From assembly GCA_023301645.1 (NCBI GenBank), contig JALZUH010000126.1, positions 1 through 32,472 of the forward strand: DNA of 32,472 nucleotides, given 5' to 3'. The number at the start of each line of letters is the position of its first letter. Position 1 is the stretch's first letter. Under the pieces are notes generated by a model, which saw only the letters and a list, made by a program, of their open reading frames with translations, was not told the DNA's origin and did not search any database. This stretch comes from Akkermansiaceae bacterium (GTDB lineage Bacteria > Verrucomicrobiota > Verrucomicrobiia > Verrucomicrobiales > Akkermansiaceae). This document shows positions 7,369 to 24,087 of this stretch, in pieces. The translations under genes and the position numbers were made by a program.

Positions 7369-8139
7369 CTAATCAACCCTGCGGGTGAACACCCATGAGG
7401 TGTCGTTGCTTAGCTCTTGGTTGTAGCTGTAGCCGTCTAGATCGTAGTCCTTGAGTTGCTCAGGTTTGGTGAGCTTGTTTTTGATCGCCCATCCTGCCAT
7501 GCTGCCTCGGGCTTTTTTGGCGTAGAAGGAGATGATCTTATACTTGTCAGTCTTCCAGTCTTTGAAGACGGGTGTGATGACGGGTGATTTGAGTTCTTTG
7601 GGCTTTACCGCAGAGAAGTATTCGTTAGAGGCGAGATTGATGATGGCGTCATCATCACCTGTGAGCTCTTCATTGAGGCTTTCAGTGAGTGTGCTGCCCC
7701 AGAATTTATAGAGATTGGCCCCGTGCTGGTTTTCTAGCTTGGTGCCCATTTCTAGGCGGTATGGAAGCATGAGGTCGAGCGGGCGGAGGATGCCGTAGAG
7801 TCCAGACAGGATGCGGATGCTCTGCTGTGCTTCTTCGAACTGGGGCTTCGTCCATTCGGCAACGTTGAGGCCTTGGTATACGTCACCTTTGAAGGCGAGT
7901 ATGGCAGCTCTGGCGTCGTCTTCTGAGTAGTCAGTCTTCCAGCTTTGGAAGCGCTCTACATTAAGCTCAGCTAGCTTAGTAGATATACCCATGAGGGATT
8001 CTATGTCAGCTGGTGATTTGTGTTTGATGATCTCTATGAGTTCCTTCGAGTGTGTCAGGAAACGAGGCATCGTGACCTCTAGTGAGGGGGTGACGGATTC
8101 GTAGTCGAGAGTTTTCGCAGGAGATAGTAGGTAGATCAT
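7369..8139 (-). CDS. yaaA: YaaA family peroxide stress / DUF328 protein
   Basis: MIYLLSPAKTLDYES, FKGDVYQGL, ILSGLYGILRPLDLMLPYRLEMGTKL, FYAKKARGSMAGW: hallmark YaaA motifs. Confidence 0.95.
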   Translation of the reverse strand: MIYLLSPAKTLDYESVTPSLEVTMPRFLTHSKELIEIIKHKSPADIESLMGISTKLAELNVERFQSWKTDYSEDDARAAILAFKGDVYQGLNVAEWTKPQFEEAQQSIRILSGLYGILRPLDLMLPYRLEMGTKLENQHGANLYKFWGSTLTESLNEELTGDDDAIINLASNEYFSAVKPKELKSPVITPVFKDWKTDKYKIISFYAKKARGSMAGWAIKNKLTKPEQLKDYDLDGYSYNQELSNDTSWVFTRRVD

Positions 8140-8176
8140 AATGGTTTATATCAGTTATTATCGATTGATATAAGAA

Positions 8177-8209
8177 GGGTGAAAAGCACCTAAAAAGTGC
8201 CTTTCACCC
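8177..8209. repeat. Strong intergenic stem-loop between the cyclophilin gene and yaaA
   Basis: GGGTGAAAAGCAC / GTGCCTTTCACCC, 13-bp arms with one mismatch, 7-nt loop; no clear U-tract, so terminator function is uncertain. Confidence 0.6.
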
Positions 8210-8328
8210 GAGTGCTTCTTACCTATATAGCCCCTATCCTGCTTTTAGCAAATGGATCTAAGTGGACTTAGTTTCATTACGTCGAGCAGTCTAGGAGTCA
8301 GTGTGGCAAGATAGCCGGTGAGAGCTAA

Positions 8329-8832
8329 TTAAGCTCCTTTTTTCCAGTCTTCGATGCGGTCAGCGTGTGCTGCGAAGAGTGCTTCTGTGCAGTCGTGGAT
8401 CTCGATAGATGAGATCTCGTCGCCTTGTCTGATGGAGTCGACTACGTCTTGTCCTTCTGTGACTTCGCCGAAGACAGTGTGCTTACCGTTAAGGTGTGGT
8501 GTAGGGCCGTGTGTGACGAAGAACTGTGAGCCATTGGTGTTTGGTCCAGCATTAGCCATTGAGAGGATGCCTGCCTTGTCGTGCTTGAGGTGTGGCTTGC
8601 ATTCGCATTCGAACTTGTAGCCAGGGCCACCCATGCCAGTGCCTGTAGGGTCGCCGCCTTGGATCATGAAGTCGGAGATTACGCGGTGGAAGGTGAGGCC
8701 GTCATAGAAGCCACGGCTAGCTAGGCTGAGAAAGCTAGCGCATGTTACTTGTGCGTCAGCGGCAAACATGCGAACTTTGAGAGCTCCCTTGCTTGTATTC
8801 ATTGTAATGTTGATGTCTTTGATTTCACTCAT
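8329..8832 (-). CDS. Peptidyl-prolyl cis-trans isomerase, cyclophilin type
   Basis: Likely start [23 protein letters not shown] (ORF track extends to 8871). [67 protein letters not shown]. Confidence 0.95.
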
Positions 8833-8950
8833 GTCGCTGGTAGAAAAAACACGAATCGAGGTGATCTGCACGGTTTTTTTGACGGTGAAGGCTATCTTTT
8901 TGAAACAAGGTCTATCATTAAGCGTATATTAGCGTAACTTCCCTCTATCA

Positions 8951-10144
8951 ATGAACGGTCAAGATTTCCAAATCAAACTCAACACCCCCCACCGCGTCCG
9001 CTTTACTCGTGGTGCTTTTGAACTGAGTAATACCTTACTGGGTGATCTCTTGGAGAACAATGGACAGGCTAATACTAAGGTGATTGCTTTCATCGATCAA
9101 GGCGTGGCTGCGGCTCTGCCTCATTTGGAGGCTGAGATTAGTGCGTATCTGGAGGCGATGGAGGGCTTTGTATCCTGTGGCACTGTCGTGCAGGAGGGTG
9201 GCGAGGTTTGTAAGCGTGATATGACGACCTTGCAGAAGGCGTGGGATATCATCGAGGAGAAGGGTATTGATCGTCATTCATATATTCTCTGTATCGGTGG
9301 TGGCGCCTATCTCGATGTGATCGGTATGGCTGCAGCTACGGCTCACCGTGGCATTCGCTTGGTTCGCCTGCCGACGACGACATTATCGCAGGATGATAGT
9401 GGTGTCGGGGTTAAGAATGGCATTAATGCCTATGGCAAAAAGAATTTCTTGGGGACATTCGCTATTCCTTATGCGGTGGTTAATGACTTTAATTTCCTAC
9501 ATCAGCAGCCAGTGGAGGAGCGCCGTGCGGGGCTCATCGAGGCGGTGAAGGTGGCACTGGTAAGAGATGGCGATTTCTTCTGCTGGATCGAGCAGAATGC
9601 TGGGCTGCTAGCAGAGCTCGATCGTGACGTCCTCGAGCAGGCCGTTGAGAGGTCAGCTATTTTACATGCTGAGCATATCACTTACGGGGGGGATCCATTT
9701 GAGACGGGTAATAATCGCCCGCTAGATTACGGCCACTGGTCCGCCCATAAGATCGAGCAGCTTACTGACTTCGCCGTGAGTCATGCTGAGGCTGTGGCCA
9801 TCGGTGTGGCCATTGATACGGTCTATGCTTGGAAGTCTGGCCTACTTGACCGTGAGGATGCTCACCGTATTCTTCATGTTATTACAACTCTGCAGCTCCC
9901 CCTCTGGCATCCTTGCCTAGAGATGGTGTATTCAGAAGGGACTTGCCCGGGTGATACTTGTCCCACGGCCCATTCGGATGTTGGTCGTAGGGTGCTCTAC
10001 CGAGGGTTAGAGGAGTTTCGCGAGCATCTCGGTGGCGAGCTGACGCTCCTACTCCTCAAGGGGATCGGTGTCGGCGAGAATGTGCACGAGATGGATGAGT
10101 CTCGACTCGATGAGTCGATTAGCCTGCTGAAAGCCTGGACTTAA
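8951..10144 (+). CDS. eboD: EboD-like 3-dehydroquinate synthase superfamily sugar-phosphate cyclase
   Basis: DRHSYILCIGGGAYLDVIGMAAATAHRGIRLVRLPTTTLSQDDSGVGVKNGINAYGKKNFLGTFAIPYAVVNDFNFL ... RPLDYGHWSAHKIEQLTDFAVSHAEAVAIGVAIDTVY. The motif set resembles EboD more than canonical AroB. Confidence 0.78.
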   Translation: MNGQDFQIKLNTPHRVRFTRGAFELSNTLLGDLLENNGQANTKVIAFIDQGVAAALPHLEAEISAYLEAMEGFVSCGTVVQEGGEVCKRDMTTLQKAWDIIEEKGIDRHSYILCIGGGAYLDVIGMAAATAHRGIRLVRLPTTTLSQDDSGVGVKNGINAYGKKNFLGTFAIPYAVVNDFNFLHQQPVEERRAGLIEAVKVALVRDGDFFCWIEQNAGLLAELDRDVLEQAVERSAILHAEHITYGGDPFETGNNRPLDYGHWSAHKIEQLTDFAVSHAEAVAIGVAIDTVYAWKSGLLDREDAHRILHVITTLQLPLWHPCLEMVYSEGTCPGDTCPTAHSDVGRRVLYRGLEEFREHLGGELTLLLLKGIGVGENVHEMDESRLDESISLLKAWT

Positions 10145-10982
10145 TCATGCTTTGGTAAGCATGGGCGAGCTGCTCGGTGATAGGTGCAGGTTGTTCTTTC
10201 TCACCGAGTAATACAGCCTGCTGGACTCCTCTGATGGAGCTGGTGATAAATATTTCATCAGCCCTCTTCACGTCTATAGGTCGTAGTGATGTTTCTACGA
10301 GTGAGATGCGGAGTTTTGCGGCTAGGTCGATAATGGCTGCGCGAGTTACCCCTGCTAGGCAGCCGCTGTGGAGAAAGGGCGTGTATAGGGTGCCGTCTTT
10401 TTGGATGAAGACATTAGACATCGTAGCTTCTGCTAAGCTGCCTTGTTGATTATAGACGAGGGCTTCATCTGCACCTTCGGCTAGGGCGTGGCGGTATGCG
10501 ATAACGCGCATCGCGTATGATGCAGACTTCACACGAGAGAGTGGTGATTTCTCATCGATGAGGTATGGCGACTGAATGAGCTTAGCTATTTGGGCTGCTT
10601 TGGTAGTATTAGCAGACTGATCTATGGCGACAGCGGTGACGATGGTGTTCCCCGTCTCCTCACCACCAGATAGCGGGTTTACTCCCCCGCTTACCGATAC
10701 TCTAACACGGGATTTTTGAGTGGTTAGCTCATTAGCATGGAGCACTTCTGAGATGGCTTGAGAAACGGTGTCTTGGGCTGGAAGGTTGATGCCTCCTATG
10801 GTTTCTGCACCTGCTGTGAGCCTTTGGTAATGCTCTGGATACATGGCGACTTCGCCGTCGCAGGCAAGCATGGTTTCAAAAACACCCAGCCCTACTGATA
10901 GGCCTAGGTCAAATGGTGACACGCGCACTTCATCAGCAGGCATTAGCTTGCCATTGATCCAGACTTGTTGACTTTTACTCAT
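10119..10982 (-). CDS. Class IV aminotransferase (branched-chain aminotransferase / aminodeoxychorismate lyase-like)
   Basis: VWINGKLMPADEVRVSPFDLGLSVGLGVFETMLA, GADEALVYNQQGSLAEATMSNVFI, GVTRAAIIDLA. Confidence 0.9.
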   Translation of the reverse strand: MSKSQQVWINGKLMPADEVRVSPFDLGLSVGLGVFETMLACDGEVAMYPEHYQRLTAGAETIGGINLPAQDTVSQAISEVLHANELTTQKSRVRVSVSGGVNPLSGGEETGNTIVTAVAIDQSANTTKAAQIAKLIQSPYLIDEKSPLSRVKSASYAMRVIAYRHALAEGADEALVYNQQGSLAEATMSNVFIQKDGTLYTPFLHSGCLAGVTRAAIIDLAAKLRISLVETSLRPIDVKRADEIFITSSIRGVQQAVLLGEKEQPAPITEQLAHAYQSMIKSRLSAG

Positions 10983-11010
10983 GGGTGTTTGATCAATTGT
11001 TTTCGCTCAC

Positions 11011-12318
11011 TTACTGTGAGCAGAGGGTTAAGATTCGATCTAGTCGCGCTACGATGTGGTCTAGCTCATCGTCAGTGAGCGTGAAGGGTGGAGTGAAGGC
11101 TAATACATTACCATGAGCGCCATCTGCTAACATGAAGATGCCCTGCTGCATCATTTCGGTGAGTATTCGTCCGCAGATGTCACCTGCGGGTGATCTGTCT
11201 GGGTGGATTAGCTCGATACCGATCATGAGCCCCCTGCCCCGTATTTCTTTAATCAGTGGGCTTTCTAGATTCTTGAGTAAGCGCAGTAGGTAGGCACTGC
11301 GCTCGCTGACTAGCTCTGCTGTAGTTGACTTACCATGCTCGCGTAGTGAGGCGACTGCCATAGCACAGCCCACGGGATTGCCCAAAAAGGTGCTGGTATG
11401 AAGTGCTTCGCCTTCCGACTCTGGCCAGTAGTCCATGATCTCAGCCTTTCCAATACAGGCGGAGATGGGGTAGCCACCACTCATGGACTTTGCCACGCAG
11501 ATGATATCAGGTGTGACTTCCTCCCAGTCACAGGCAAAAAGTTTGCCCGTGCGATTAAAACCACTAAAAATTTCATCGAAAATCAAGACTACTTGGTGCT
11601 CGTCACACCAGTCTCTGAGTATCTGCAAGAATCCTTCTGGTGGCACGATCTTACCACCCCGCCCTTGGATAGGCTCGACGATAAGAGCACCCATTGCGCT
11701 GCTGTCGATGGCGCCTAGCTGACTCTTGAGTAATGCTAGATCGGCTGTTTTTCTTGGGAAATCAAGGAGTTCTCGCAGTGGTGCGAGCTGGTCGACGAAG
11801 GGTAGACGAAATTTCTCTAAGCCACTTCCAAGTAGTGCTCCGTAGCCAAGGCCGTGGTAGCTATCTTGAAAGCAGATGATGCCTGCTTTAGCCGTTACCA
11901 TGTAGGCGGTCTTGAGAGCTGATTCGACAGCCTCTGAGCCAGAGTTACTTAGGGTTGTTTTTCCGCGATTTGATGAGCCACCCCATCGCTCGAAGGTCAT
12001 CTCTGAGAGGAGCTTGCACACTTCTAGCTTGAGGGCTGTAGGGTGCACATCCCCCATGGCGTGAATCATTTCGCCAGACTGATCGCGCATTGCCTGAGCA
12101 GACCAGCCGTGCCCGAGTCCCGCTACGCCAAATGCCGCAGTGAGGTCGAGGTATCGATTGCCGTCTTCGTCCCAGACATTACAGCCTTCAGCTTTTTTCC
12201 AGAAAACAGGCCAGTTAGCTGCCGTGAATGTGACATTACGGCATTCGTATTGCTTTAAGTCCTTGGCTAGCTGGAGTGAGCGCGGACCAGGTATCTCAGT
12301 GATGAGCTGTGGTAGCAT
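11011..12318 (-). CDS. Class III PLP-dependent aminotransferase
   Basis: VWDEDGNRYLDLTAAFGVAGLGH, NSGSEAVESALKTA, LIFDEIFSGFNRTGKLFACDWEEVTPDIICVAKSMSGGYPISACIG. Confidence 0.93.
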   Translation of the reverse strand: MLPQLITEIPGPRSLQLAKDLKQYECRNVTFTAANWPVFWKKAEGCNVWDEDGNRYLDLTAAFGVAGLGHGWSAQAMRDQSGEMIHAMGDVHPTALKLEVCKLLSEMTFERWGGSSNRGKTTLSNSGSEAVESALKTAYMVTAKAGIICFQDSYHGLGYGALLGSGLEKFRLPFVDQLAPLRELLDFPRKTADLALLKSQLGAIDSSAMGALIVEPIQGRGGKIVPPEGFLQILRDWCDEHQVVLIFDEIFSGFNRTGKLFACDWEEVTPDIICVAKSMSGGYPISACIGKAEIMDYWPESEGEALHTSTFLGNPVGCAMAVASLREHGKSTTAELVSERSAYLLRLLKNLESPLIKEIRGRGLMIGIELIHPDRSPAGDICGRILTEMMQQGIFMLADGAHGNVLAFTPPFTLTDDELDHIVARLDRILTLCSQ

Positions 12319-12385
12319 AGAAATACGATATGATCTTCAATGTGGTGTTCAACAAATGGTAGCTGAAAAATGATAGGTTACTTGG

Positions 12386-12982
12386 TTATTTCCAAGCGAT
12401 ATGAATATGTCTGTCATGCCCTTTGCTGCCAGGTCCAAGCACTTCTGTAGCACCTCTTTGGCGACAAATATTCATAAACTCTCTGTAGTAGGCTTTGCCG
12501 TATCCGACTTTCACACCATTGATACGGTCAACATCGAAGGCGACACCACGGTAGTGGCGAGAGTTTCTGCTGTGTGAGCCGCCGGCGATTTCAGTGACGT
12601 GATATGACCAGCCTTTTACATCAGCCATGTAGAGCATGGTTTGGAGCATTCTTTTATCGAGCTTTGCGTAGCCACCAGGTGCATTACCATAGCTACTGAG
12701 GCGAGCACTGTAGCCACGTGATGCAGAAGAAATATTATGATACGCTGTCGCAGTGTCTACTCGACCACTGACATGCCCGCGCATGAGCTTGATCTTAGGG
12801 TGGTGTAGGATGCGGGTTGCTAGTTGAGCTATTGAGCCTTTGATTTCAGAGGGCTTAGTGATCTTTGGAGCTGGCTTAGGCACGACCTTAGGAGAGGCAA
12901 TAGGGGTCGAGGTGCAAGCACTAGTAATCACTAGACTAGCGACGAGCGGGATAAACTTTAACTTCTTAATAAAGATACGCAT
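12386..12982 (-). CDS. Predicted lipoprotein with an M15-like zinc peptidase (D-Ala-D-Ala carboxypeptidase-like) domain
   Basis: Lipobox-like ITSAC after a hydrophobic signal; SRHYRGVAFDVD and DRHIHIAWK match the SxHxxGxAxD...HxH metal-ligand pattern. Confidence 0.75.
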   Translation of the reverse strand: MRIFIKKLKFIPLVASLVITSACTSTPIASPKVVPKPAPKITKPSEIKGSIAQLATRILHHPKIKLMRGHVSGRVDTATAYHNISSASRGYSARLSSYGNAPGGYAKLDKRMLQTMLYMADVKGWSYHVTEIAGGSHSRNSRHYRGVAFDVDRINGVKVGYGKAYYREFMNICRQRGATEVLGPGSKGHDRHIHIAWK

Positions 12983-13130
12983 ATGAAAAGGAAGGTGGCT
13001 AAAGTGAGCTCATTAGTCAATTCGTCAAAAAAGATTGTTCTCAAAACAGATACCATATCCAGATCCTGCTAATCTAGATACGGGTCATAGAGGACTGCTT
13101 CCCTTAGAGTAAATGCTAGCACGGTAGCGA

Positions 13131-14981
13131 TTACTTGTATTGAGGGTCGGTGAGCGTTTTTAGAAATGCAATCAGGGCATCAATATCAGACTTAGGCAGA
13201 TTTAATCCTCCTTTAGGGTGCTTGGCCAGATTCGGATCAAGGTTTTCGGTTCGTAGCACGCCTGAATTGTAATGCTCAAGAACCTCTTCCAGTGAGCCGA
13301 AGCGACCATCGTGCATATAAGGGGCTGTAAGGGCGATGTTTCTTAGTGATGGAGTGCTGAATTTATAGCGATCACTGCGCTTCCATGTTGTCGCCTCTAG
13401 TCCTATGTCGTCATGACCGCCTAGCCCATTATTATGAAATCGATGATCGGTAAATAGCGCACCACCGTGACAGTGGAAACAATCCGCACCATAGCTACCG
13501 GAGCGCGGCTCGTATTCGCTAAAGAATAACTCGAAGCCGCGCTGCTCTTCTTTACTGAGCTCAACTTCCCCCTTCATGGCTTGGTCAAAGCGTGATTGAT
13601 AGGAGGTGAGACTCAGCAGGTAGGCTTCCAAGGCGAGGGCCACCTTCTCGGCTGTGACTTCTGTTTTTTGGACATCAGCACTGTTGTTATCCGTGCTATC
13701 ACTATTACCAAAGGCTTTGGCGAATTCATTAGGGTAGTTTTCTTCTGCCTTCCTCGCTACATTTTCTAGAGTTTCGCCCATTTCACGTGGATCTTGTAGT
13801 GGATCAAGCACCTGTTCCCGTAGTGACGGCGCACTTCCATCCCAGAAAAACCGTTGTTTCCAAGCGAGATTAAACAAGGGCATGGAGTGTCGGGCGCCTG
13901 TATGCCCGTCAACTCCCTCGCTGAATGTCCTAGCGTCAGAGAATGCTAATGCGAAGTCATGACATGACGCGCAAGAAATAGTGCCGTCACGAGATAGCGA
14001 GGCATCATGGAAGAGCTTTTCGCCAAGATCAACCCTACTTACTAAGAGTGGGTTATCGAGTGGTAGATCGGGTATGGGGAAACGAGCTGACATCTTGAAG
14101 GGAAAGCCTACAGGGTTTGCTGGCAAGTAGAGTGGTTTGAGCTTTTCTTTAGCTGGGCGTGGTGTGGCATCACTCACACCTACAACGGCAAATGCAGTGG
14201 CCATATTTACATTCAGAGCCTTAGCGATCTCATCCCCCTGCTTCGAGTGAGTGGAGTCACCCGTCGTGCCAAAGGAAATCCTTTGCGCGCCATGAAAGAG
14301 AGACTGCAGATCAAAGCTCAGCCCTATCTGTGAGGTGCTTGTGGTTGTCGACTTTAGCTGAAGGGACACGGGGAGCTCGATGCGTTTACGGTTCCAGTCA
14401 TTGGCGTAATGGTAGACGTAGCCGCTGAGTTCCTTGTCCTGCTTTCTGTAGCGCCCTTCTAATGCCATGAAGATATAGCCATCCTGCCATGTCCAGTGGA
14501 GGTTGTTTAAATGAGTATTAAGCGGGTGGTCGGCTGGGTATTGAGTGGGGTCAGCATGATTGACACTCTCAGGGACCCCGATAGAAAAGGCAATAGCCTG
14601 ATACTCGCCGTCAGGCACTCCTGTGAGATGAATACTTGTCATCCGCTTCTCCAGATCGATCAGTGCATATTGATCGGGTAGCGAAACCCACTCACCGTCA
14701 GGGGTCGAAAGGGAGAATCCACTAAGTAGGTAGCTTAGACGCGTCACAGAAAACACCTCTCCTGCTCGGTAGCTAAGTGAGTCCAAGGCTAGGCGCTTAC
14801 CATCATAGCGGTGCTCTATTTCGATTCTTAAGCCCCCCTTCTCTGCTTTAGTCGCGGCGGGTATAATCGCTAGACTTCCTATAGCCACTATGATCATAGC
14901 AACTACTGAGTCTAGGGGATACCGCTTGCTCAAACCCTGCACGTCATTAACCTCACATAATAAGACCTCATCTGCAAGCAC
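13131..14981 (-). CDS. Fusion protein: N-terminal MbnP-like domain plus C-terminal di-heme cytochrome c peroxidase / MauG / MbnH-like domain
   Basis: N-terminal half: FSVTRLSYLLSGFSLSTPDGEWVSLPDQYALIDL...GVPDGEYQAIAFSIGVPESVN...LHWTWQDGYIFMALEGRY. C-terminal half: two CxxCH hemes, CASCH (13959-13973) and CFHCH (13467-13481), plus PYMHDGRFGSLEEVLEHYNSG. True start may be internal, e.g. TTG at 14933 ahead of LSKRYPLDSVVAMIIVAIGSLAIIPAATKA. Confidence 0.88.
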   Translation of the reverse strand: MLADEVLLCEVNDVQGLSKRYPLDSVVAMIIVAIGSLAIIPAATKAEKGGLRIEIEHRYDGKRLALDSLSYRAGEVFSVTRLSYLLSGFSLSTPDGEWVSLPDQYALIDLEKRMTSIHLTGVPDGEYQAIAFSIGVPESVNHADPTQYPADHPLNTHLNNLHWTWQDGYIFMALEGRYRKQDKELSGYVYHYANDWNRKRIELPVSLQLKSTTTSTSQIGLSFDLQSLFHGAQRISFGTTGDSTHSKQGDEIAKALNVNMATAFAVVGVSDATPRPAKEKLKPLYLPANPVGFPFKMSARFPIPDLPLDNPLLVSRVDLGEKLFHDASLSRDGTISCASCHDFALAFSDARTFSEGVDGHTGARHSMPLFNLAWKQRFFWDGSAPSLREQVLDPLQDPREMGETLENVARKAEENYPNEFAKAFGNSDSTDNNSADVQKTEVTAEKVALALEAYLLSLTSYQSRFDQAMKGEVELSKEEQRGFELFFSEYEPRSGSYGADCFHCHGGALFTDHRFHNNGLGGHDDIGLEATTWKRSDRYKFSTPSLRNIALTAPYMHDGRFGSLEEVLEHYNSGVLRTENLDPNLAKHPKGGLNLPKSDIDALIAFLKTLTDPQYK

Positions 14982-19627: not shown

Positions 19628-20116
19628 TTACTTCTTCATTTCGTCTTTCATCATGGCCTCTTTCTTCATCATGGCTTCTTTCTGCATTTCAGCCCACTTA
19701 GCATCAGCAGTAGCGATCACAGCAGCTGAGTCAGCATCGAACTTGCCTTGGATCTCAGCATTTGCATTCAAGTAGATCTTACCGTCCACAACTGCGAAGA
19801 ACACAGGATCAGCAGGAGCCTTCTTACCGTGGCTTACACAATAAGCGCAGTAGCCGTCATACTGAGGAAGATACTTCTCAGGGTCCTTATCAAAAACAGC
19901 TTTTATTTCCTCACTAACAAACAGGTAAGTCTTGCCATTCACCTCTGATGAAATTGCCTTATTACCTACGTGTGCTTGACCAGCAGCAATATAACAAACT
20001 GGGCAATACCCATTAAGAGCAATCGTTTTATCCTTCATCATTTTCTCTTCTTCAGCATTCGCGTTTAATCCAAGCGCTAAAGCAGCGACAACCATTACCA
20101 TTTTAATTAATTTCAT
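19628..20116 (-). CDS. Secreted protein with two YHS-like modules and a Met/Lys-rich repeat tail
   Basis: Signal peptide MKLIKMVMVVAALALGLNANA; LNGYCPVCYIAAGQAHVGNKAISSEVNGKTYLFVSEEIKAVFDKDPEKY, then YDGYCAYCVSHGKKAPADPVFFAVVDGKIYLNANAEIQGKFDAD; tail KEAMMKKEAMMKDEMKK. Confidence 0.7.
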   Translation of the reverse strand: MKLIKMVMVVAALALGLNANAEEEKMMKDKTIALNGYCPVCYIAAGQAHVGNKAISSEVNGKTYLFVSEEIKAVFDKDPEKYLPQYDGYCAYCVSHGKKAPADPVFFAVVDGKIYLNANAEIQGKFDADSAAVIATADAKWAEMQKEAMMKKEAMMKDEMKK

Positions 20117-21987: not shown

Positions 21988-22518
21988 TTAGTAATAAGGC
22001 TTGAGCAGGAAGTAGCAAATGGGGCCAGTGGCAGCTACGTAGAGCCAGAGTGGAAATACCCATCGTGCCATTTTTCGATGCCTTACTAGGTGATTAGTAT
22101 AGCCTAGTGATAGGGTGGTGAGAATAAATGGCAGGCTCACAGCGGCGAGCACGATGTGACTGAGTAGCAAAGATAGATAAACTGTCTTGGCTGTTCCCTC
22201 TCCTCCGAATCGAACTTCCTCTTGGGTGCCGTGGTAGAGGACGTAGCTGAGCAGGAAGATCGTCGAGAAGACGACGGCGACTCCGATAAAGCGCTTGTGC
22301 AGTGTGATATTGCCTTTTCTCACAGCAGATACTGCGATGATGAGGCTAATGGCTACAATGCTGTTACAAAGGGCGTGTAGTGGTGGGAGCATCGGCAGCT
22401 GCATGCCGATATCGACCTTGTATTGGCGCATTCCTCCGACGAGAGCTAGCACAACGAGCGTGATCACCCATGAGGCGATGATGAGCTTCTTAAGCTTCTT
22501 TTTATCAGGCTGGCTCAT
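21988..22518 (-). CDS. DUF420-family membrane protein
   Basis: 176 aa, multiple TMs: LPPLHALCNSIVAISLIIAVSAVRKGNITLHKRFIGVAVVFSTIFLLSYVLYH, SHIVLAAVSLPFILTTLSLG, HRKMARWVFPLWLYVAATGPICYFLL. Confidence 0.88.
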   Translation of the reverse strand: MSQPDKKKLKKLIIASWVITLVVLALVGGMRQYKVDIGMQLPMLPPLHALCNSIVAISLIIAVSAVRKGNITLHKRFIGVAVVFSTIFLLSYVLYHGTQEEVRFGGEGTAKTVYLSLLLSHIVLAAVSLPFILTTLSLGYTNHLVRHRKMARWVFPLWLYVAATGPICYFLLKPYY

Positions 22519-22530
22519 TACTACGATTGA

Positions 22531-23229
22531 TTACTGAGTTTTGAGGAGTGTTTCTACAGTGAAGTGTAGTTTGTTTTCTTCACCTGTATAGAAGGCGTCG
22601 CCTTTGGCTTTCGCGTTGAATAGGTCGTGGCGCTTTACCATGCCGAGATCACGGTTGAAGATGGCAATCGACATGTCGTGTTCGTAGGTGCCGAGGCGAG
22701 CTGCCTCTTCGGGATTTTCACGCTTCACGATGGTTTGGTATTTGATGACGTCGATCATGTATCGCTTCATCGGCTCAGGATCTCCGGTGAGAAATAGCCA
22801 GTCTGATGTGTCTGCATCAAGTGCATTGGCGTAGGTTTTGAGCTGCTTGGTGCTGTCGTTTTCGGGGTCGACGGTGACGCAGACGACCATGAAGTCAGGA
22901 TCGGCTTTGAACTTTTCGTAGAGGGCCTTTAGTCCTTGGTCATTACGCTCTGCACACATCGGGCAGAAGGCGTAGAATTGGGCAAATGCCCAGACTTTAC
23001 CTTTGAGGTCAGAAATTCTGACTTCTTCGCCGTCTTGGTTGGTGAAGAGGAAGTCTTCTTCGAGCTGAAGCACAGCTTCGAAGTTGGCTTCTTTTTGATA
23101 TTGTGGGGTATCTTTGATCTCAGCTAGCTCATGGTTTTTGCCACGAATGGCAAAGGCGATAAACATGATGAGGGCTGATACCACGATCACAGTGGCGTAG
23201 ATAGTTATTATTTTCTTCGTATCACTCAT
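22531..23229 (-). CDS. SCO1/SenC-like thioredoxin-fold protein with CPMC motif
   Basis: N-terminal TM anchor; DFLFTNQDGEEVRISDLKGKVWAFAQFYAFCPMCAERNDQGLKALYEKF...FMVVCVTVDPENDSTKQLKTYA...YEHDMSIAIFNRDLGMVKR. Confidence 0.82.
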   Translation of the reverse strand: MSDTKKIITIYATVIVVSALIMFIAFAIRGKNHELAEIKDTPQYQKEANFEAVLQLEEDFLFTNQDGEEVRISDLKGKVWAFAQFYAFCPMCAERNDQGLKALYEKFKADPDFMVVCVTVDPENDSTKQLKTYANALDADTSDWLFLTGDPEPMKRYMIDVIKYQTIVKRENPEEAARLGTYEHDMSIAIFNRDLGMVKRHDLFNAKAKGDAFYTGEENKLHFTVETLLKTQ

Positions 23230-23289
23230 GAGTAGTTATGTGGTTGAGTTGGTGGGGCAGCTTTAATGTCTCTTGCTATCGGCTGCTGA

Positions 23290-24087
23290 TTACATGCTAG
23301 CGTCCTGCTTCGGCTGCTCTTTCTTACCTGTGCTGACTTCGGCTAAGACGTAAGAGGTGTTTTTATGCAGTGTGTTTTTAAGGTTTTTTACGGCATTGAT
23401 ATAACGATCAAAACCTTCTTCATCTGCTAGCTCAGGATTTGCAGCGAGGTCTTTGACAGCTTGCTGATGGCTCAGGTGGGCTTCGCGGAAGTCGTAGCGC
23501 TGGCGTAGGTGCATGCCCTGGTCGATGAGGGCTATCTGTGATGGGAACTTCCACTTACCAGCAGGATCACCTTCGGGGCGTGCTGATACGATGCCTAGTC
23601 TGAGCTGATCTTTGATGTATCCGCGTTGTTTTTCGGTTTCACCAGTGGTCAGCACGATGATTTTTTCGGTGTTAATACCGAGTTCTTCGACTGCTTTGGC
23701 GAGCTGCTCAGGGCCTACTCCGAGGTCGACACCTTCTGTGGAGATGAGTGCTAGTCCAACTTGGTCGTTTTCGCGGTAGTGCTCTGCTAGCTCTTTGATC
23801 ATGTCCAGCGCGTGCTTATTCTCACCTGGCTGACTGACACATATAGGGGCCACGAACCATACTTTATTTTCAAATACTGAGAGGCTGGTGACTCTACCCT
23901 CATGGTTCTTAGCTCCTAAGTTTTTAGATAGACGTGCTGAAATGGGCGGTCTTTCTTGATCCATATTGGATTCATGTCTCTTATAGGCCGATAAAACAAT
24001 GATAGCTCCGATAATCATTATTGCGATGAGTGCAAAGATTGTTTTGCGGATTTCAGCGGGATTTCTCTCTCTAGGTTCTAGATCCAT
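23290..24087 (-). CDS. Degenerate SCO-like paralogue lacking the two-Cys metal motif
   Basis: N-terminal TM anchor; LGAKNHEGRVTSLSVFENKVWFVAPICVSQPGENKHALDMIKELAEHY...VGLALISTEGVDLGVGPEQLAKAVEELG...FPSQIALIDQGMHLRQRYDF. Confidence 0.6.
   Translation of the reverse strand: MDLEPRERNPAEIRKTIFALIAIMIIGAIIVLSAYKRHESNMDQERPPISARLSKNLGAKNHEGRVTSLSVFENKVWFVAPICVSQPGENKHALDMIKELAEHYRENDQVGLALISTEGVDLGVGPEQLAKAVEELGINTEKIIVLTTGETEKQRGYIKDQLRLGIVSARPEGDPAGKWKFPSQIALIDQGMHLRQRYDFREAHLSHQQAVKDLAANPELADEEGFDRYINAVKNLKNTLHKNTSYVLAEVSTGKKEQPKQDASM

Follow-up and report, generated by a model that had tools for sequence, protein, structure and literature searches.

Can an enzyme that oxidizes a tryptophan of a partner protein to kynurenine, and the partner itself, reside on a single polypeptide? 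This question is raised by a minus-strand gene in a 32,472-nucleotide stretch of DNA from an Akkermansiaceae bacterium (the whole stretch analysed, hereafter the window), for which an initial annotation had proposed a self-modifying, in-cis version of the MbnP/MbnH pair, with substrate Trp and oxidizing di-heme enzyme on one chain. This pair is a leading model of how an enzyme generates kynurenine within a metal site. In MbnP of Methylosinus trichosporium OB3b the first Trp of the WxW motif is the one oxidized, and Cu(I) is bound through a His and a Met beside the resulting kynurenine; work on OB3b has also established that the separate MbnP and MbnH act in trans. To our knowledge copper handling has been little studied in Verrucomicrobiota. 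The frame at positions 13131-14981 reads without interruption through all 616 codons, as annotated, and both Trp codons of the WxW motif lie exactly where they had been placed (Table 1). The GTG at 14981, at which the ORF mechanically begins, is probably not the true start; that at 14942 is preferable, given a GAGG about 8 nt upstream of it and the conventional signal peptide (MQGLSKRYPLDSVVAMIIVAIGSLAIIPAATKA) that results.

To define the domain content we searched the translated product against profile and structure collections. Both halves of the architecture were confirmed by Pfam, with MbnP (PF20243) scoring 134 bits against a gathering cut-off of 27, and CCP_MauG (PF03150) matching aa 316-472 with 170 bits against a cut-off of 25.6 (E 6e-50); the two CxxCH motifs expected of the latter are present as CASCH and CFHCH. 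The corresponding NCBIfam models remained under their cut-offs: TIGR04039 (MbnH) reached 211 bits against 363, and TIGR04052 (MbnP_like_WxW) matched part of the N-terminal domain with 50.8 bits (E 1.4e-13) against an equivalog cut-off of 140. The nearest solved structure to the C-terminal half is MbnH, with peroxidases and MauG ranking behind it. For the N-terminal domain, a PDB profile search with its alignment gave no match and a single-sequence search retrieved MbnP 7l6g at a weak E of 0.46, which was made solid by a fold search and by a link via a Paracoccus homologue. The fold search used an AlphaFold2 model built from 13 sequences without templates (pLDDT 61.8, pTM 0.47), in which the N-terminal domain is well modelled (pLDDT mostly 65-95) and the heme domain poorly, with pLDDT below 50 across much of it. 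Foldseek comparison of this model with the PDB returned MbnH 6e1c as the top match and MbnP 7l6g with an E of 9e-10 (TM 0.50 by target), and the remaining matches at E ≤ 0.001 were all structures of the MauG/peroxidase family. Given that the protein belongs to both Pfam families, but falls short of the NCBIfam cut-offs and lacks the four-Cys and Met features of methanotroph MbnP, the most fitting description of the gene is as a fused verrucomicrobial variant of MbnP/MbnH. Our preferred explanation, to which as a whole we give a probability of about 0.6, is that the product is an exported di-heme protein that unites on one chain an enzyme domain of MauG/MbnH type and the MbnP domain that is its substrate; W163 would be converted to kynurenine and a Cu(I) site would form. 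We infer its catalysis, kynurenine, copper binding, geometry and role.

Table 1. Features of the fused gene (window coordinates) and their conservation in 57 fused and 38 separate homologues
Feature	Position	Strand	Evidence or conservation
MbnP-MbnH fusion gene, likely true extent	13131..14942	-	start inferred from sequence
MbnP domain, aa 49-237	14271..14837	-	PF20243 E 7e-39; fold match to MbnP 7l6g
MbnH/MauG-like di-heme domain, aa 307-614	13140..14063	-	TIGR04039 2e-62; PF03150; 6e1c 1.3e-42
W163, first Trp of WxW, expected kynurenine precursor	14493..14495	-	57/57 fused, 37/38 separate
W165, second Trp of WxW	14487..14489	-	Trp 47/57 fused, Pro 10/57
H191, candidate Cu ligand, kept family-wide in MbnP	14409..14411	-	57/57 fused, 37/38 separate
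H245, candidate second Cu ligand (STHS motif), fused clade only	14247..14249	-	57/57 fused
Heme 1 attachment CASCH, aa 337-341	13959..13973	-	Cys and His invariant 57/57
Heme 2 attachment CFHCH, aa 501-505	13467..13481	-	Cys and His invariant 57/57
Active-site stretch W380-Q390-P394-E400	13782..13844	-	spacing = MauG W93/Q103/P107/E113
Y571, equivalent of MauG axial ligand Tyr294	13269..13271	-	57/57 fused, 38/38 separate; aligned to MauG, MbnH, CCP

Residue conservation was assessed in alignments of 57 distinct fusions and 38 unfused homologues. For the MbnP domain this comparison showed that: 1) W163 aligns with the AWNW motif of OB3b MbnP, and the window protein, with HWTW, possesses the modifiable first Trp. 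2) The second Trp is kept in 36 of the 38 unfused homologues and gives way to Pro (LHWTPQGGY, LHWDPQQGY) in a set of fusions from Roseibacillus and Akkermansiaceae (L049, L051-L056, L058 and L060), and in L039. The WxW motif singled out in the initial annotation is thus present with an invariant first Trp, but in its complete form is not required; an invariant first and a dispensable second Trp agree with oxidation of the first Trp in OB3b. 3) The loop position of H245 carries Met in the methanotroph and Paracoccus sequences (GCMS) and in the Bacteroidota sequences inspected, and in the window protein THSK replaces CMS. 4) H162 and D250 are, like H245, invariant across the 57 fusions, and these three together with H152 are peculiar to the fused clade when set against the 38 unfused homologues. 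5) From the end of its signal peptide up to the first heme motif the window protein has no Cys, and the four-Cys motif is hence absent. The copper site predicted from these residues is probably of a type other than that of methanotroph MbnP. The replacement of the Met-bearing loop by H245 and the absence of the four Cys suggest a two-His site as in CorA/MopE, CorA being known to use two His for copper (PMC3912023). To judge from a variable loop as aligned here, the MbnP fold of the fused clade may therefore bear a two-His site like that of CorA; the sequences of the CorA/MopE domain itself and of MbnP show no marked similarity (PMC3621798).

In the di-heme domain, the equivalents of the MauG residues with described roles (W93, Q103, P107, E113 and Tyr294; PMC6405878) are largely retained: W380 and E400 are found in all 57 fusions, P394 in 54 and Q390 in 50, the latter being Leu in the other 7, at least some of which fall within the same Roseibacillus group. 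W374 is also invariant in the 57 fusions. True peroxidases too belong to the CCP_MauG family, and the distal Gln/Pro/Glu are common to them and MauG (PMC6405878); accordingly, one could read the protein as a cytochrome c peroxidase that disposes of H2O2, its MbnP domain serving to sense copper or donate electrons and no kynurenine being formed. We regard this as unlikely, as the position of Y571, which the alignment shows to be Met in true peroxidases, is Tyr in every fusion, leaving the protein without the Met that is the axial ligand of the electron-transfer heme in bCcP; further, MbnH is the nearest structure and W163 is invariant in the N-terminal domain. An axial Tyr in place of the peroxidase Met is, at the level of sequence, MauG/MbnH-like.

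We then asked how widespread this architecture is, in a survey of the host order, a sample of the phylum, Bacteroidota and plasmid records. The MbnP domain is present in 156 of 386 genomes of the host order, where among the matches listed nearly all lie in frames of about 560-660 aa, and in 22 of 390 genomes of the Verrucomicrobiota sample. Nine short MbnP frames among the host-order matches listed were considered as unfused genes and rejected: eight are truncated by the end of a contig, and L102 retains both halves in overlapping frames, the result of a frame break. In a tree of the C-terminal domain all 57 fused sequences fall on one side of a branch with an SH-aLRT support of 99, which fits one ancestral fusion. 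In the sampled Verrucomicrobiota MbnP is almost universally fused, with a single apparent origin of the fusion, and the survey and the one-clade tree make it a lineage trait rather than a peculiarity of this genome. The initial annotation was correct regarding the fusion and both family assignments, and the oddity that it described is not confined to this genome but lineage-wide. Joining of two genes by an assembly or sequencing error is effectively eliminated, since the search of relatives recovered the same architecture in about 150 genomes, single-contig ones among them, and we found no evidence favouring such an artefact. We found no mention of MbnP-MbnH fusions in the literature searched, which lay outside Kenney 2019 (JBC) and Manesis 2021 (PNAS).

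In Bacteroidota, by contrast, the domain occurs in 66 of 249 genomes in short frames of about 190-520 aa, and 33 of the 34 loci read have a separate adjacent peroxidase gene; the remaining one (L063) is a short stretch with no peroxidase gene in view. These pairs comprise the same two homologous domains as the fusion, side by side and for the most part in its order, but are two genes in every locus opened and, in those inspected, have a Met-bearing loop for the H245 motif. Adjacent but separate MbnP/CCP pairs were also recovered from plasmid records of Chondrinema, Deinococcus and Paracoccus, the pairs of the latter two being accompanied by CopC/CopD or PCuAC/SCO genes. Among 20 of the Bacteroidota loci (L151-L170), 13 have a neighbouring small protein with an ELHCDGQCF-type motif and 12 a neighbouring protein with a CDICGCFMGITPYY-type start.

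Comparison with characterized systems places the fusion closest to the OB3b pair (7l6g, 6e1c; TIGR04052, TIGR04039), in which both domains are homologous to its own and with which it shares the WxW motif with conserved first Trp, the MauG-type heme pocket, the axial Tyr and the His of the HxG segment. It differs in being one chain rather than two, in its want of the four-Cys motif, in having H245 at the place of the GCMS Met, in scoring under the NCBIfam cut-offs and in lying outside a methanobactin operon. With MopE/SACCP and CorA/CorB of gammaproteobacterial methanotrophs it would share a Trp-derived kynurenine by Cu(I) and a di-heme peroxidase-like partner, and with CorA (PMC3912023) the two His ligands predicted for the fusion, whereas the genes of those systems are separate. 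In MauG and pre-methylamine dehydrogenase a di-heme enzyme likewise oxidizes Trp residues of a protein substrate, as we propose for the fusion; unlike here, that substrate is a separate protein of a different fold and the product is TTQ. The complex of these two proteins provides the precedent for capturing electron-transfer geometry in one crystal, as could be possible with a natural enzyme-substrate fusion, which fixes the stoichiometry. The fusion offers a one-chain system for how Trp joins a copper site and extends the kynurenine-copper theme to Verrucomicrobiota, and the natural variants of the clade (Pro for the second Trp in 10 of 57, Leu for Gln390 in 7) probe the function of the WxW motif and the distal Gln.

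In the mechanism that we propose, heme c would first be attached in the periplasm, after which H2O2 (or O2 and electrons) would bring the di-heme pair into a state of the bis-Fe(IV) type. The oxidized centre would then withdraw electrons from W163, located either on its own chain or on the other chain of a dimer, to yield kynurenine. Together with H191 and H245 the kynurenine would form a Cu(I) site, through which the protein would serve in periplasmic copper capture or storage. The host genome, which is 91% complete, encodes no MbnP or CCP_MauG domain besides those on this ORF; thus, any MbnH-type modifier of W163 would be this protein itself, acting in cis or between copies, with the proviso that a second MbnH could have escaped notice in a genome of this completeness. 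In the fusions the distance from H245 to the first heme Cys is kept within narrow limits (median 92, sd 2.7, range 82-105), which would suit a packed arrangement without separating intra-chain action from action between copies. Within the preferred explanation, a version in which the enzyme domain works strictly between the chains of a homodimer or oligomer, the fusion merely fixing stoichiometry and co-export, seems to us rather improbable as an exclusive mode: it finds a parallel in the trans action of MbnP and MbnH in other bacteria, and the AlphaFold2 model, with its poor heme domain, lends no support to a cis geometry, while the constrained spacing speaks for packing without being decisive. 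The self-modification originally proposed is strengthened on two counts: these are the only MbnP and CCP_MauG domains found in the genome, and the 57 fusions conserve the Trp expected to be modified, the catalytic residues of MauG type and the axial Tyr. Strict cis action is no better supported than exchange within a homodimer.

The window gene is flanked by a divergent glucose-6-phosphate isomerase gene and a gene for a small exported protein, with no copper gene as a direct neighbour. No mbnA, mbnB, mbnC or mbnT was recognized among the window ORFs, the neighbours being metabolic (nine ORFs were passed through Pfam). About 7 kb upstream, DUF420, SCO1/SenC and a second SCO-like gene, of the cytochrome oxidase assembly type, lie in a row (21988-24087, minus strand), which may be a coincidence. 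A gene for a small exported YHS-domain-like protein is situated at 19628-20116 on the minus strand. Around the fusion in relatives just one gene recurs widely, and it encodes a YHYH protein (PF14240). Of 56 loci (L046-L061 and L111-L150; e.g. L046:4442-6013, L052:4029-5864, L061:3-1955), 31 have this gene at a distance of up to about 6 kb, as against 1 of 20 Bacteroidota loci, and in 23 of the 56 it lies upstream of the fusion in the same orientation, no more than 200 bp away. The YHYH gene is present at the fusion locus of a relative of the same genus (L130), and the only YHYH gene found in the window genome lies on another contig (L110, G000:C5:601-1407), its matched frame having one in-frame TGA. 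We found no published link of YHYH proteins to copper in the literature searched. This close association, and the retention of a YHYH gene by the window genome, could mean that a further exported protein, for instance the YHYH protein, is an additional or even the main substrate of the di-heme domain; we consider this very improbable, as the stretches read around 25 of the fusion loci (a few of them short) contain no YHYH gene and the MbnP domain is always on the chain. As a fuller version of the one-chain MbnP/MbnH reading, we tentatively put forward a self-maturing copper protein in a major verrucomicrobial lineage, which would convert W163 of its own chain to kynurenine, hold Cu(I) in a two-His/Kyn site of the CorA/MopE type on the MbnP fold and act with a YHYH partner; all these elements holding together is possible but doubtful. 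Two of the loci have unusual frames: in L050 the YHYH domain is in one frame with a sulfatase domain, and in L057 a 1988-aa ORF (7725-13688) overlapping the end of the fusion frame combines galactose/glyoxal oxidase-like Kelch, PA14 and PKD domains with c-type cytochrome/CCP fragments.
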